Shown here: positions 9,613 to 18,900 of the stretch, piece by piece | Layout of the letters: every line of letters begins with the position of its first letter | Position numbering within the stretch: the first letter of the stretch is position 1 | Assembly (NCBI GenBank): GCA_001600495.1 | Contig: BCKE01000104.1 | Location: 1-39,123, forward strand | DNA from: Pilasporangium apinafurcum | Lineage: Eukaryota; Oomycota; Peronosporomycetes; Pythiales; Pythiaceae | Direction of reading: 5' to 3' | Length of the DNA stretch: 39,123 nt | Translations under genes and position numbers: made by a program | Notes under the pieces: generated by a model | Seen by the model: the letters and a program-made list of their open reading frames with translations, nothing else | Databases searched by the model: none | What the model was told of the DNA's origin: nothing

Positions 9613-12600
9613 TTATTTGGTTATTTGCTTCTCTTCAACTTTAGCGAGGTACTGTGTAGTGTCCTCTTCAATGTCTCTCAAGATTTGCTTCCGTGTTTCA
9701 TTAATATCTTGGGCAGTAAATGCTGATGGCGAGATAAGCAATTCCAAGTTAGTGTCTGTAACATCTTTTTTGATTGCCCCGTCTTCAGTATCGGATTGCA
9801 CCAATGATACGTAGCTTTTTAAAATCACTTCTGCAAACTTGAGCACATACACGCCGCAATCAAAACTGTTCTCCTGATGCGGAGCCTTCACATAAATAGG
9901 ATGCACACGGTCTTCCTCATACACCACATTATCTGACCCACGTCCAGATTTCTCCCACTCTAATGCAAGAAACCTATCGCATACAGTGACATCAGTATAA
10001 TAAACTACAGCGACCCTATGCACAGCACACACACCCTTTGAGGTTGCGAATGATTGCCGCTTTACTGTGATAACTACCCAGTGGGTCCAGTAGCGCAATA
10101 CACGACTTTGGTTGATTCTATAGGCAGCAAAACACCAAGCCACAACATTCAGCTTTGATAGTGAGCACACAACACTACAAATAGCTTTACCTCGTCAGTT
10201 GGATCCATAGTCGCCATCTTCGGATTGATAATGACGGCTATACTCCAATGCAAGCTATAGTCAAATACAACAGCTTATGAGTAACTGCCCACCAGCCCTT
10301 GTGTATTCTCGCCATTCGTACTCTTTATTAATTGGAATAAATATCATCGATCGGCTGAAGAAATCCGAATGAGTGAGCCAGGTCGATACGTTCTGGTAGC
10401 CCGCTTTCATCCGATCGCCAGGGGTATTCCCTTTTCCCATTCGAAGTCTCGAATAAAAATGAGAGCTCAAGAACAAAACATTTTTCTGAATAAGGGGACT
10501 TTTTTGGAAATCAACCAGCATCATTCGTCTAAACAAACATTCAAGCACATCATTAGAGCGGCACGTCCACGAATCCATTCACACACAAGCACTGACTTGA
10601 AATAATAATCAATGATGTTATCATTGAGGTATCGTTCTGGTTTCAATCGGGACACGTCCTGGCGGGTAATGGTCACAATATCGGACGAACATGGAGGTAA
10701 TGGGTAGGTAAGCTGAATTTCGTGGCAATCGCTCTCCGCTTCATCTGACTCAAATCCCCTACAACAGCAACGGGTCATCCCAATCCATCGACTTGAGTGC
10801 TTTAATACATCAATGCAACTTTCGTACTTTAGGTTTGCTTCTTTTCTACGCTTTGGGCGACCCGTGTCTTCTCTGACAGGAACATTTGAAGCATGACTAA
10901 GGAGTGCACAAAGATATAATTTACCCGTTTCACTGCTTCCGCTGCGCAGTATAAAACCAAATTAATATCTCAAGCGTTGAAGCAGGGCAAACAACTACTC
11001 ACATTCGCTGCACATCCGCGCAAGCACCACGCAACACATCTTCGAATCGTTCAAACATTTGTCCATCCTTTTGGTCATTTGGAGCTTGGACAACAATTAA
11101 TTGTTTGGTATCATCTTGATTCAAACAGCAAAATATTTTGTTGTTACCAGCGGCTGTACTCAAAAACAACAATTTCCTCGGCGACAAACCTTCACTATTT
11201 GGGTCGAAAAACCTTTGCACAAGTTTGTGGTCATCTCTCTGAGGAAGTGTACACTTCAGTGCCATGAAGGACGTTTCCGCCATCAATCTCTCGGCCACAT
11301 CCGCAATCTCGTCTAGTTGTGGTTGTTCTCCTTCTTCTGGCCGCCGATAAATACTAAAGAACAATTGTCAGTCTCTTGGAGAGTATTGTTTATGGTAAGT
11401 CACGTACTAAGCCTCCTTAACGTCCTTGTAATCAATCGTAATGTAAGGCATGAATTGCAGTCTTTCGTTCCTCTTCCCTCTATATGTGAGTGAACAGAGT
11501 GAGTTGTCAGTTTATGCAGCTAACAAAAAAACTAAAGATGATGCCTTGACCCACGACACACCTGATACTGCATATCCAAAAGCACTCTGACTGAACCATG
11601 AGATCAACTGAACAGAATAATTTCCCAATCCACGCGTCACAGTTTTCGATCGTAAACAATGAGTTACTCTTGATGACACTAACATCAATGTTTGCAACGG
11701 TCACATTGGATAAACTTGATTCATGCTCGTCTTGCTTGAGCGTTGTTGAGTCTTTGTTTTCAAACGTTTCCGGCTCAGAATCAGAATCGAGATGAATTGG
11801 TTGATCCGCACTCCCTATTGTATTCGTCTTACACTGAGCCAGTCGTGTTGAATATCTCCGCGTCTGGATAGAACTTTGCACGTCATAGTTTGTTTGTGAA
11901 GATACATATGAACGGCTAGTGCTGGATCGCAGGCTGAATCGAGTCGGCACCACTTCCCGCTTCCGTTTCATCGACCGCGAGGTTGGAGACGAGCGAATGG
12001 AGGATATATCCTCTTGCTCGTTCAACACATCCGAGCTCTTTGACGAGCCGAGAGACACGCGTGGTTTCTGCTTGGGATTCGTCGACTCAGCAGATGCTCT
12101 TGTGTTCCACCAGCCGCTTGATCCCTGTGGTTGATCGCTTGGTTGGATGAGATGCGGAGATCCCATTTCCAGTTTTGGTGCTGGAGCGCTCGCTGATTCC
12201 AAGGATTGCCGCTTCTGCTGCGGTTTCCCAAGGATACGTTTCGCGCCAGCAGCGGAGCGTCTTTGGATTGTCGTGAGAAATGCTTCTTGCTCTTTGGGTG
12301 GCATAAAGTTCTAAAAGCAAAGAGACGAGCAAAAAGTTAATTGTTTAGAAAACTAGGCCAGAGTGATTTATGCCATTGAGCGTCTTCAGCTCTTTCTCAC
12401 CCCCTGGCGGAGATTTTTTTCTTCGTTGTTCATGATAGACAATCCTGGGGCATTGATACTCGCTCCACTCGCAGGCACTTTCACATACTTTCTTGGGTGA
12501 TCAACTCCGTTCGCACGATCGTGTGGCAGTCGACGAGCGGCTCCATAATCTGATCCATTGCGACTATCATCGCCAAAGTTAAAATTCATCTCCTGGTCAT

Positions 12601-12954: not shown

Positions 12955-13069
12955 CTCGTCCAGCGTGCCTATATTGGTGCATATGGATGATGAAGGAAAA
13001 AACCTTTGAAAACCGATACTTCCTCCAAGGGCAACTTTTTTTCTGGTGCCAGCTGGTTAGCTCCCGAAA
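12955..13069. promoter_or_regulatory. 115-bp divergent promoter region
   Basis: The start codons of the SUMO protease (minus) and the WW-helicase (plus) are only 115 bp apart, so this stretch must hold both promoters or a shared one. No TATA box or clear initiator is visible. Confidence 0.5.
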
Positions 13070-15895
13070 ATGACGAATGATGCAACATCGCATGCACTAC
13101 CGGACGGCTGGGTCATCCGTGTGTCTCGATCGAAAAGCAAAGTGTATTATTACAACACCAGAACGAAAGCGACACAATGGACACGCCCGTTATCAGTCGC
13201 GAATAGCAAACGCCAGCGCTCTGAATCCACTGATGAACAAGCAACAGAAGAAAAGGAAACACAACTGCAGTCGCGCATTCGCATCGCCATGCGTGTGGGT
13301 GGGTCTATCGGTGCGAAGAATAAGCGTATCCGCGCGGATACAACACCATTTACACCGTGGAGTCATCAGCTGCGCGCGATTGAGAAGGTAATCACTGCGA
13401 TCCAGCAAGCACCACAGCCGAAAACGACGCAACGATTTCTATTGCAACACAGTACTGGTGCAGGGAAGACAATGACCATGGCGGCATTGGTGCGTGTAAC
13501 TCTCACTTACTCTCTGATCTCTCATTGATCAATGCCATACTAGCGCATGCTTGTATGTAATACAGACACATCAATTGCTTTACTTTGAAGATGCTGATGG
13601 TGCACGTTTTCACACGATCGTGATCATGCTCGATCGTATCAAACTGGATGAACAAGTAGGAGACATAGTGGAGGCTTTTTTGCATCGGAATGGCATTGAA
13701 GAAGTGTTTCGTGCGGAAAGTATTGGTCATTTGGCGAAATTGTTGTCGATCGATTCCCAGCAGCGCGTCATCATCACGACGATCCAGAAGATGGGGTTAC
13801 TAGTGAAAGACGATGTGCTGCTGACGCGACTTTTGCATCAAACCAGTAGGGGTGACGATAACGCTGGTGGTGTAGCTGACAAAACGTCTTCCAACACAAA
13901 TGAGTTTAGTCGCATCGGTATTCTTACAGACGAAGCTCATCGCTCTCATACTGCTTCGACGAGAGAAGCAATCCAGCGTGTGATGGCAGCAGGAGAAGAA
14001 CACACCACGCCAATGACGGTACGAAAAACCCTCTGTGAGGACGAGATTATGAAGCTTACATGATTTGCTCGTACTCTAGTTTATTGGGTTCACAGCTACA
14101 CCCAACACTGAAGCCCTCCAGCTCTTCGGTTCCGTAACTGACAAAATTCTCCATCCGTTTGACTGCTACTCTATTGATCAAGCAATCAAAGATTTGCGAA
14201 TCATGAATGTGTTGCAAAACTACGTATGCATACGCTTCGACATTGAAACTGCCATTCCGACCGATGTAATGAAGACACTCATTGACGAATGCGCGCTTCG
14301 AAGTGTTCTCGACTTTGCTAGTGAGAGTGATACGGTGTTAAAAGTGAAGGCGCTACTCATGATGGAAGACTTTGAAGGCAAAAAAGTGAATTGGTCAAAG
14401 GCGAAAGTAAGTGACAGCACACTCTATCACTGTGTTATCATACTTCTATAGGCTGACTTGTTTATGCCGGTTGTGGTGTTCTCTCAGTGTATGATTGTAG
14501 CGCGTAGTAGGCGAGACGTGGTCCGCTACCATACGTTGGTCTCCACCTACTGCACGAATAGGTTTGGTCGAGTCTGAACAATGTATTTCCAACGCCATTG
14601 TGCCTGGTTGCCCTGATTGTTGATCCTCTTCAACTGTATGTAGGCAATTAGGCTGGAATGTTTATGCGGCATTCAGTGGGACTCTTGCTCTTGACGACGG
14701 TGTCACGTACGTCAGTGAACAAAATCTAAATGGTACGCACAATACTCTCGCCATCAGCGACGTGGTCATTGTTTGCGACAAACTTGATACGGGGTACAAC
14801 GATCCAATGCTTGCAAGTATGTATATTGATCGATACCTGCGCTCAAGCACTCAGACCGTACAACTCCTGAGTCGCCTCAATCGTCGTAACAAAGGTACAA
14901 AAGCGTTTTTTATTCTGCTAAATGGACGAACTATTTTACAATTGGTTGCCTTCAATATGATTAGATAAATCGAGCGTGCACATCATGGATTTTGCGAATC
15001 ATGCTGCACAAATTCGTAGAAGCTTTGCTCACTATTGGCAGGAAGCTCGAGTACCATTTATTTCCGATGCAATTGATGAACCTACTGAGATATCAAATTT
15101 CGTGACTGGGGTGACAATTCTATGCGATTTCTTGCCGACTCTCTACGAGGACAACGGTCAGTTATCAGTTAGCCGCATTGTGGAGGAAAATATTCTCCAT
15201 CTTGAACGAGATTCCTTTCAGCAAGTGCTGGATGCACTCCGACTCTCCGTATCAGCGTGGAACAGGCTTCATTCTCGACGATCTTCCCATCATATGATAT
15301 CCCACTCTCCTATCAGGTATGCATTCTTGTCTAATATGTTAGTTGCTGGGTACTGTTGATATGAATATTATTGCGTCTACTTAGCCACAAGATCCTATTA
15401 CAGCTAAAGAAAAAGGTTGAAAGCCATATTTCCGCGAAAGCGAATGAACCTAGGAACTCAGTGGAAGAGATCAAGTACAAAATGTCCACTCGTGTTCATC
15501 ATTATCAGAAGTCATTCATCGGGTCCATTTTCCCTCAGTCGCTTCTGGTAATACGGATATTATTTTTTGCTTCCTTCAATATAGTACTAACTTCAACAAC
15601 TTGAAACTTGGGATGTTGCAAGGCCCGAAGCACTAATAGTTGTTGTCTTTCCGATGGCATAATCAACCTATTGAAGTTCGGTCCATTGGAGAAATTTGAG
15701 CTATTCCTTGCACTATTGGGGCTACACAAACATCGACAATCGATCGATGACGACGTGAAGAACATTGCACTGGGTACTGATCAAAATGGCACAGCCCCAA
15801 ATCGGGAAGTGACCAGTGTAGAACATGGAGATCGAATACGAACCCAGATTTCCAAATTAAGAGGAATCTTGGTCGATTTACTAGAACAAAGTTGA
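13070..15895 (+). CDS. WW domain fused to HsdR-class SF2 helicase
   Basis: Eight exons (13070-13489, 13566-14018, 14080-14406, 14452-14561, 14644-14894, 14965-15316, 15385-15547, 15623-15895) give about 782 residues. A WW domain lies at about 10-42 (tryptophans 14 and 37, YYYN, proline 40). The helicase follows: HSTGAGKT with Walker A lysine 133, DEAHRS at 262, FIGFTATP at 292, DKLDTGYND near 482 and QLLSRLNRRNK at 510-520. STGAGKT, TTIQKMG, the tail of the DEAHRS motif, YSIDQAI and the DKL-TG / RLNR pair are characteristic of the motor subunit (HsdR) of bacterial type I restriction enzymes rather than ordinary eukaryotic DEAD/DEAH helicases. The N-terminal HsdR nuclease domain is absent. The donors at 14562 (GTTTGG) and the AAG acceptor at 15622 are atypical; a TACTAAC branch site 31 bp upstream supports the latter. 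The substrate is unknown. Confidence 0.8.
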
Positions 15896-15911: not shown

Positions 15912-18900
15912 CTAACGTGAATGTTCGAGCTTGCTAACCGTATCATATACTAGCTGCGACAGTCCATGATACAGCGTATTGAAATCTTCGTTCGAGTACG
16001 CAACTATGTCAAGAGTTCTGGTTGGTGTGATAATTGATAAGCAGTGTCGATCATCAGCAAACTTTGATACTGAACGCTGGAAAACTCGTGTATGCTTCCC
16101 TGTTGCGATCTCAGTGATGCTCGATACCAGTATGTTCTTCTGAAAGAGTACATTGCTTGGACGGAGTTTTTTGGAGCGTCCGTGAAGCTGCTGGTCGTCT
16201 TCAGTACGGATGTTGTGTGGCCTCGTCCACATTAATCGGGTGCAAAGTGAGTCAGAGAAAAGAAGTCGTGGGTGCGGTTTGCCTATTCGTCCATGCTGCA
16301 TACACAAATTTGTTGAGCTGTTTGACTGACAACCACAACGAGCATATAGTTTATACCTTTTCGACGATAAAACCTCTTTGAAGTTTGGTCGTAAACTTGA
16401 CAAGATCTTTAATGTCGTAGGCATGTCGTGGAATCATATTGATGTCATATTTATTCGCTGTTGTTTCAACTGAGTTAGTTGCTTCGCCAAAAGCGGTCAA
16501 ATGTAGTGGCGGAAGCACTGCGACAGAATCGGTTGCGTTCTGGTTCGACGATACCATTTGATGTAGTGTTTGAAAGAAGCTAGTATGTGCTGGTGACTCG
16601 CTGTACTTGAATCGCTCGACACTGTCACGGGTCTGGAGCTCAACTACATGGTCGAATGTGCCATATACACTGTGGCCGGTGCTATTTTCTAAAGCCACTT
16701 GAGTAATAGTCCGAATAGGCAAATAAAATGGCTGATTTGGTGTCGACATAAGTGCTGGCTTCCACGTGATGTGTGTGAAATGAGTATCGACAAATAATCT
16801 GCCTTCAGTCCATGTCTCAGGTTTACTTAGCTGTAAGTTAGTAACAAATACAACACGCTGAGTCATTGCCTCAGGACAATTCAATAGCAATAAATAATCA
16901 AACCTTGTGGAGTATGATGGCTGTCGACAGTGCATTAACATTGTCAAGTGACGGGGACCTTGGGTCAAGACCGCGATGAATACTGGACATAGTCTGAGAC
17001 TCATCACCACATTGTTCTCTTTCTTTCCGCGCCATGCGCTCACGCCATGAACGTTGTATCTTCATGCAGGAATGAATGTGGTGCGCACCAGCAGTGAAAT
17101 CTATGCCGGTAACTCCAGATGGTGTGATGACCCAGTCGGCTGATATTGCACTTTTCAAGTCATTATCTCCTGAGAGTCGACTGCCGTTCACACTCTCCTC
17201 ATCATATCGCTCATCTTCGTCCGTTGTCTCCGAATACCAGGACGCATCTGTTTCTGCTCTTTCCAGAATGTCTTCGCTAAGTGCTGTTCCAATAAATGAC
17301 AGCGTTGTTTCCGTATCTGCACGTTGAGGCCCACATGCAATTTCCATGCATCCTCGGCCCATTACATCCGTTATGCAATGACTCTCTTCTTTAGGAGATT
17401 GTTGAAGCAACGAGAGAGACGACTCTGATCCCACTGGAGAGGGTAGACTTGGGCTGGGAGCAATTGAGTCTGCTTCTTGATTTGAAAATCCACCCATCGA
17501 CTCGCCTCGGAGTGATACCTCAAAGTCGTCAAACCACTGTATTGAATCTGGTGATAAACTCGCAGCCTTTTCATTGGGATGCATTTCGATCGCTTGTATA
17601 AGCTCTTGAATTTCTTGTTCCCATTGATCAGTTGGCTCCGTTGCTGTAGATATTTATCAACAGATATAATCATTAAAACATCAAGTGTTGATCTGATATG
17701 TGTATACTTACGATGTGCAGTCATGGGCGTTTGTTCGTTGTTGTCGATACAAGTCATTTCTTCACTTGCTTCGTTAAGTGTCCTAAGCTCACAATGGCTC
17801 AACTCAAGCTGCTGGCCATTCTCTGGACGATCCATTTGAGTGGAAATTGACGATTCTTTGCCAGTCGAATTGATGCCAGTTAATGCAATTCGAAACAGGA
17901 CATGCACTGCCCATTTCAACTCAAGACTTGGACTGCATGCTGTCGGAACTGACGGACGCGGTTGTAGTGACACAGATGGGGATATTTCTTCATGATTTTG
18001 GTGAGCTATGGTTGCGCCAATACCAGATGACTGATCATCTCGATATTTCTGATACATTTGTGTTCGCACAAACGCACGTACGAAACCTACTTCTCTGTCA
18101 GAGAAGCTCTGGCCCGCATTTTGGTTAGTCACTACTTCAGTCTTCATGCATTCTCGAAGCAACTGCTCAATATGACGACGAATGCGACGAATGACTATGT
18201 CCACGACAAAAGGAGCAACGCTTCGGTCAACGTCGTGCGAAAGAAGTGTCCCATGCCGACTAAGACTAGACAACTCTCGGGATAAATGATCACTTTCTGG
18301 TAGTTTCAAATCATCGAATACAGCAAGGTCATCGGAGTGTAGCTCAACACAATTATCTATCAAACGAACAATGCATGTCCCCTTCGCCAAGTCAAAGCTA
18401 TTGGGAACCTTGTCAACTCCGCAAATCAATGGCACTGGGGCCTGGACGGATTTAAAGCACAAAAATGCATAAGTTATGAGCAGGATTACATCATAGATGC
18501 GCTTACTTACATCCATGTATTCATGCAGTAGTGGTGGTAAAACTGTGATTAGTGGGCCCGCCCAAACCAACGGATGGAGTAGCGACGCAATCCCCAACAC
18601 CGCAGCAGATAGATACGATAAATTTTCGCACACTATGATCACTTTCATTTCCAACAATAAGATGCCCAGAACTTGAAGGATCTTATCAAGAGATAAACAC
18701 AAGAGCAGTTGGGGCAGTGCCCACTGGAGTAGTAGCGTAGTTTTCTCGTTTGTTCCATCTTCTACACGCGGTCGACACAGTAGTAATGGATCCACTTGCG
18801 ATGGTAAGGCATTTATTGCTAAACTTTCGCCTTCACGTGGAATCGACGATGCTTTCAACTTTCGTAAAACTTCATCAATCACATGCGCGTGCTATCCAGT

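Follow-up and report, generated by a model that had tools for sequence, protein, structure and literature searches.

How a motor resembling that of a bacterial type I restriction enzyme came to stand behind a WW domain in a eukaryotic gene, and what such a protein might do there, are the questions raised by this locus. We analysed the window, which is the whole of contig C104 (39,123 bases), within a searched genome of 36.5 Mb in 136 contigs. A single protein of 770 residues is encoded on the forward strand between positions 13070 and 15895; its eight modelled exons join across seven GT-AG introns into one open frame (Table 1), confirming a preliminary description of this DNA as an intron-bearing eukaryotic gene. 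One uninterrupted frame (13061-13528), which holds exon 1, contains the WW domain and the linker together with the Q and Walker A motifs; because these elements share one open exon, the fusion of WW domain and motor is independent of splicing. This single exon also rules out that the WW exon comes from another gene, and the WW domain is part of the same gene as the motor, as had been proposed.

The introns are 61-82 nt long and have a GC content of 0.31-0.45, compared with 0.42-0.53 in the exons. Introns 1, 2, 4 and 5 are backed by an unbroken alignment to HsdR, the type I restriction motor subunit. For intron 3 we preferred the reading 14407-14487, because the 45-nt alternative (14407-14451) would insert 12 residues, ADLFMPVVVFSQ, at a gap where the eight aligned HsdR proteins have about ten fewer. 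The splice sites put forward in the preliminary description, a donor at 14562 and an acceptor at 15622, are identical to those chosen in the present model. Scored with the codon usage of neighbouring genes, the model frame exceeds both other forward frames in all eight exons and the best reverse frame in seven of them; exons 4 and 8 fall just under zero, and in introns 4, 5 and 7 the best frames reach 0.02-0.12 bits per codon, on a par with the weak exons. Because the weak exons score no better than these introns, codon usage is insufficient on its own to establish the gene model.

Table 1 Features of the WW-motor gene, with positions in the window and the basis of each assignment.
Feature	Position	Strand	Basis
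Exon 1: start codon, WW, linker, Q motif, Walker A STGAGKT	13070..13489	+	open frame 13061-13528
WW domain, Pin1 type (class IV), residues 10-40	13097..13189	+	Pfam WW; ungapped Pin1 alignment
KRQR, monopartite NLS-like motif	13208..13219	+	one of two K[KR]x[KR]; shuffle test
KRIR, monopartite NLS-like motif	13322..13333	+	other K[KR]x[KR]; shuffle test
Helicase motif I, HSTGAGKT	13448..13471	+	HsdR alignment, conservation count
Intron 1, 76 nt	13490..13565	+	GT-AG; frame and HsdR alignment restored
Exon 2: motif Ia region, DEAH box	13566..14018	+	frame 54.0 bits against HsdR profile
DEAH, motif II	13929..13940	+	conservation count
Intron 2, 61 nt	14019..14079	+	HsdR alignment continuity, GT-AG
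Exon 3: FTATP (motif III), inter-lobe segment	14080..14406	+	frame 61.8 bits
Intron 3, 81 nt, favoured over 45-nt reading 14407-14451	14407..14487	+	HsdR alignment
Exon 4: motif IV region, CMIVARSR	14488..14561	+	frame 14452-14577, 8.3 bits, weak
Intron 4, 82 nt, weak donor GTTTGG	14562..14643	+	HsdR alignment across junction
Exon 5: CDKLDTGYNDP (motif V), QLLSRLNRR (motif VI)	14644..14894	+	frame 55.8 bits; T1R_D3-like
Intron 5, 70 nt	14895..14964	+	HsdR alignment continuity, GT-AG
Exon 6: IMDFAN post-motor motif, then C-terminal region without assignment	14965..15316	+	frame 15.3 bits
Intron 6, 68 nt	15317..15384	+	frame and splice consensus only
Exon 7: C-terminal region without assignment	15385..15547	+	reading frame
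Intron 7, 75 nt, TACTAAC at 15585-15591	15548..15622	+	frame and consensus only
Exon 8: C-terminus, stop	15623..15895	+	reading frame

The helicase motifs named in the preliminary description are all present (STGAGKT at residues 128-134, DEAHRS from 262, FIGFTATP ending at 299, DKLDTGYND from 470 and QLLSRLNRRNK from 498), and its assignment of the motor to the HsdR type is borne out by profile comparisons. The NCBIfam model TIGR00348 (hsdR) matches residues 89-548 along profile positions 236-672 with an E-value of 1.7e-33 and 116.1 bits, a score below the curated cut-off of 284.55; the best PADLOC models are those of type I REase. Pfam finds WW (1.7e-10), SWI2_SNF2 (7e-28), ResIII (2.2e-20) and T1R_D3-like (1.6e-7) in the 770-residue protein, which is the sole match to PF22679 in the genome; PF18766 has two further genome sites, both below its cut-off.

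We also built an HsdR profile from relatives of the protein, 90 in number: eight from plasmids, 80 from prokaryotic genomes (the best 80 of at least 581) and two from viral contigs. After excluding 17 that were incomplete, of unusual length or short at the N-terminus, 73 remained (64 of prokaryotic-genome, eight of plasmid and one of viral-contig origin). Residues 89-538 align colinearly with positions 269-715 of the 979 in this profile at 280.5 bits, a score biased upward by the gathering of the relatives according to their likeness to the WW-motor protein, a bias of which TIGR00348 is free. In a comparison on the same profile, the genome's next SWI2_SNF2 candidate (L010) reaches 7.4 bits and the WW-motor protein 282. 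The stop-to-stop frames holding exons 1 to 6 score 26.3, 54.0, 61.8, 8.3, 55.8 and 15.3 bits, respectively: four strong matches, one moderate and one weak, the last of these (exon 4) lying below the inclusion threshold. None of 20 shuffled copies was listed at E ≤ 10.

Conservation within the motor follows its motifs. Of the 91 positions with 95% or higher conservation across 88 HsdR proteins, a count from which the viral-contig relatives L014 and L015 were excluded, the protein keeps 65, including Q100, G130, G132, K133, DEAH, TATP, T474, G475, SRLNR and DF.N; motifs Q, I, II, III, V and VI retain their core residues. The other 26 positions are changed, some of them within motifs (in motif I, GSGK has become GAGK; in motif V, QTG has become DTG), and identity to the eight aligned plasmid HsdR proteins is 30-32%. 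The pattern of kept residues is what selection on an ATPase would leave. Queried with the motor sequence alone, the PDB gave no HsdR; EcoR124I HsdR was retrieved at 95 bits by a profile of nine sequences, the WW-motor protein among them.

Other helicase families fit less well. The DEAD/DEAH family PF00270 scores 29.3 bits (cut-off 26) against 98.2 bits for SWI2_SNF2, no RecQ-named Pfam family appears at E ≤ 1, and SNF2_N, the family of SNF2 remodellers, is not among the Pfam matches at E ≤ 1; as judged by profile scores rather than by a tree, the best match lies outside the ordinary DEAD/DEAH, RecQ and SNF2 helicases, in agreement with the preliminary description.

At the other end of the protein, the WW domain carries all of the residues previously listed for it (W14, YYYN, W37 and P40, within residues 10-40) and scores over the Pfam WW cut-off. 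New here is its identification as a Pin1-type domain. Compared with PDB chains, it gives a gap-free, single-domain alignment of 36.7 bits with a Pin1 chain, and other Pin1 chains reach 28-35 bits with a shorter query. Single WW domains of NEDD4L, WWP1, Itchy and TCERG1 score at most 18.3 bits in the alignments listed, the chain totals of these proteins being similar to or higher than that of Pin1 when summed over several WW domains; the PRP40 type lies outside this domain-by-domain comparison. Residues R17, S19, R20, Y26 and W37 correspond to R14, S16, R17, Y23 and W34 of Pin1, and all five are identical. In studies of Pin1 complexes, S16, R17 and Y23 form hydrogen bonds with the phosphoserine in a peptide from the polymerase II tail (PMC9468764), and the phosphate is coordinated by R17 and the proline held by Y23 and W34 (PMC4601027); R14 makes no contact in the complex of PMC4601027 and does so in others.

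By these residues, the WW domain of the motor protein is of the Pin1 type (class IV). Because the phosphate-binding residues are identical to those of Pin1, its partner is likely to be a phosphorylated Ser/Thr-Pro protein, for example the RNA polymerase II tail, and not a plain proline-rich protein; we put this partner in place of the proline-rich one that the preliminary description had supposed.

The genome holds 98 WW matches, most of them over the family cut-off. When the 97 others were fetched as short stretches, one had the full R.SRS..K loop: L228, in what by eye is an unconventional myosin tail, with 20 of 32 residues identical to the motor's WW domain. The second nearest, with 15 of 32 identical, is in the myosin L229. 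Both myosins (assigned by eye; L228 1385-2086, minus strand, and L229 1349-2152, plus strand, contig C8) have a C-terminal WW domain with a Pin1-like SRSxGxVYY loop. Myosin XXI, a class found in stramenopiles and haptophytes, is described as having WW-bearing tails (PMC3942036). Because the nearest WW domains in the genome sit in myosin tails and such tails are described for myosin XXI, the motor's WW domain may derive from a host domain of this sort.

Between the WW domain and the motor, residues 41-88 contain both of the protein's K[KR]x[KR] motifs. At least two such motifs fell in this segment in 0.09% of 20,000 shuffles, a figure to be read in light of the shortness of the consensus and of a test made after the motifs had been spotted. 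From these two NLS-like motifs we infer a nuclear location for the protein.

We then consider where the motor came from. Prokaryotic contamination is ruled out by the introns and by eukaryotic neighbours on the same contig. The stramenopile host assumed in the preliminary description is upheld by a 608-residue frame elsewhere in the genome (L024 469-2295, minus strand, contig C8), which has a TPI match followed by a second half that is GAPDH by eye; TPI-GAPDH fusion is typical of stramenopiles. The host is probably a water mould. The motor matched 822 plasmid records, none at 60% identity or above, and seven phage records; its best PHROGs match is a family of unknown function (1.7e-50). Prokaryotic genomes gave at least 590 stretches and at least 581 relatives, of which the best 80 were kept, and a closer prokaryotic relative may lie beyond those found. 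Among viral contigs, a single-sequence query found relatives in two of 21 candidate stretches and an alignment query in 173 of 235; the best 80 of these 173 have 25-30% identity and include no closer kin.

In a tree of 91 motor rows, the protein falls outside a clade of 88 HsdR rows, between that clade and the two more distant viral-contig relatives (L014 and L015), on a terminal branch of 4.48 changes per column, where the median is 0.18; the method was a quick one without bootstrap, and the tool flags the placement as unsure, with long branches meeting and odd letter make-up. This position fits a bacterial or archaeal source and names none. The very long branch outside the clade, together with the seven introns and a codon usage and GC content close to those of neighbouring genes, would also suit an old, vertically inherited gene, that is, an HsdR-type motor present early in eukaryotes and surviving in few lineages with no later transfer from microbes. 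We consider such a history unlikely: fast evolution after a transfer gives a long branch too, the placement is itself flagged as unsure, and L014 and L015, which also lie outside the clade, are HsdR relatives from viral contigs. This alternative and those that follow overlap, and the probabilities we attach to them need not add up to one.

Much of the machinery that goes with a restriction HsdR was not found. Matches to HsdR start at residues 82-96, corresponding to position 236 of TIGR00348 and position 269 of the 73-relative profile, and a genome search with HSDR_N, the nuclease family, gave no match at E ≤ 0.1, which supports the earlier statement that the nuclease domain is missing. The region before the motor is where HsdR keeps its nuclease. 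At least 250 residues precede the motor match in 81 of the 90 relatives, and four of the other nine are cut by a contig end; here 88 residues, including the WW domain, precede it, and the WW domain thus occupies the place of the nuclease, as had been claimed. One relative, an HsdR frame of Halobellus rufus (L042), has just 36 residues before the motor match and is possibly a nuclease-less or broken archaeal HsdR.

On the far side of the motor, residues 525-770 do not match the HsdR profile significantly, and exons 6-8 match no Pfam family. The genome contains no N6_Mtase match at E ≤ 0.1 that could represent HsdM. A lone Methylase_S match was rejected as an HsdS partner, being marginal (21.8 bits, or 22.3 with neighbours, at a cut-off of 22) and by eye of the Hop2 type. 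This match (L289 793-1962, plus strand, contig C39) looks like a Hop2-type coiled coil and counsels caution with eukaryotic Methylase_S matches in general. Additional copies of the WW-motor gene were also sought, and a whole-genome DNA search returned only the gene itself. The protein is an HsdR motor by descent and not a restriction subunit by membership.

These absences bear on whether the protein might still serve in genome defence, with the motor acting in the nucleus against foreign or mobile DNA and the WW domain bringing in a nuclease or a silencing factor that works in trans. Its relatives are restriction subunits, and in six of the eight plasmid relatives fetched hsdR adjoins methyltransferase or specificity genes; the genome nevertheless has no HSDR_N, HsdM or credible HsdS match, a Pin1-type WW domain suggests phospho-signalling, and of ten neighbouring frames scanned, the six with a Pfam family include none of a defence family. 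We regard a defence role as doubtful. The minus-strand frames upstream of the gene span 9613-12310 of the window, the part at 9613-10194 matching the C-terminal domain of Ulp1 (SUMO protease), and the downstream minus-strand neighbour is a DENN-domain frame (17371-18891). A further open frame, on the plus strand at 128-688, is similar by eye to the C-terminal part of a hAT-type transposase, with no Pfam match at E ≤ 0.01.

The loss of flanking domains also raises the question of whether the motor still moves. Studies of EcoR124I report that its helical C-terminal domain participates in translocation and ATPase activity (PMC5248579) and that nuclease-domain mutations reduce the rates of both (PMC2602864); because both domains affect these activities, the trimmed motor may be impaired. 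The protein could use its ATPase as a switch, or as a clamp held in place, during DNA repair or replication and not translocate processively, a role that would accord with a C-terminal helical domain not recognisable in the sequence and with the changes at 26 of the 91 near-invariant positions. The core residues kept in motifs Q, I, II, III, V and VI speak against it, and to our minds it is improbable.

A gene-model artefact, contamination or a pseudogene, for which the weak donor of intron 4 and the weak codon-usage signal of exons 4 and 8 might be adduced, is very improbable given the intact frames, the exon-by-exon matches to HsdR, the conserved motifs, the eukaryotic neighbours on the contig, and a WW domain and Walker A motif held in one exon.

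The architecture of the protein, the conserved core of its ATPase motifs, the phosphate-contact residues of its WW domain and its single copy are established. To account for them we propose that an HsdR was taken up by a stramenopile lineage. In this lineage its nuclease half would have disappeared, the end that docks to HsdM would have been lost or strongly altered, and introns would have been gained. The motor would also have been fused to a WW domain of Pin1 type (class IV), which probably came from the host and would stand in for HsdM and HsdS as a loading device, recruiting the motor to Ser/Thr-Pro-phosphorylated proteins, whether the RNA polymerase II tail or further substrates of proline-directed kinases. 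At these sites the motor would spend ATP on pulling along double-stranded DNA, shifting or stripping bound complexes in the manner of SWI2/SNF2. That the domesticated restriction motor works in this way, as a nuclear translocase on double-stranded DNA that is recruited by phosphorylation, we hold to be almost evenly balanced between true and false. We advance with more reserve, as a possible reading, that translocation is phosphorylation-gated, with the WW domain replacing the methyltransferase core and the proline-directed kinases of the cell cycle or of transcription steering HsdR on chromatin.

Several known systems resemble parts of this protein. HsdR of EcoR124I (PDB 2w00) shares the motor from the Q motif to the DF.N post-motor motif; the WW-motor protein differs in having neither the N-terminal nuclease nor a recognisable C-terminal helical domain, in having no HsdM match and no credible HsdS match in its genome, and in its added WW domain and introns. 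Pin1/Ess1 provides the best single-domain match to the WW domain among the alignments listed, with identical phosphate-binding residues, but there the WW domain joins a prolyl isomerase and here a DNA motor; near the genome's own rotamase match, on contig C15, the WW domain has a different and shorter loop than that of the motor. The myosin-tail WW domains on contig C8 (L228 and L229) are the nearest among the 97 others in the genome, and are attached to an actin motor (by eye, from the head sequence) rather than to a DNA motor. With SWI2/SNF2 remodellers the protein shares a remote kinship of the motor and, likely, ATP-driven movement on double-stranded DNA; it is set apart from them by a motor of HsdR type and by the absence of SNF2_N noted above.

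Among the papers listed from open-licence PubMed Central, none was found to describe an HsdR motor domesticated by a eukaryote. A type I review reports no eukaryotic HsdR in the passages that mention eukaryotes (PMC3874165), nor do excerpts of PMC5023847 and PMC7641849, and sequence databases could well contain unannotated homologues.

Taken as read from its sequence, this one gene, in which a Pin1-like domain is joined to a restriction motor without the DNA-cutting part, suggests a defence motor turned into a eukaryotic nuclear machine. If this is true, the translocating half of a restriction enzyme would be separable from its nuclease and methyltransferase and could acquire a new loading domain that is subject to regulation. 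Evolution would then have reached DNA translocases of chromatin scale by a second route besides SNF2, and the protein would offer a test case for how a WW tether steers a motor.
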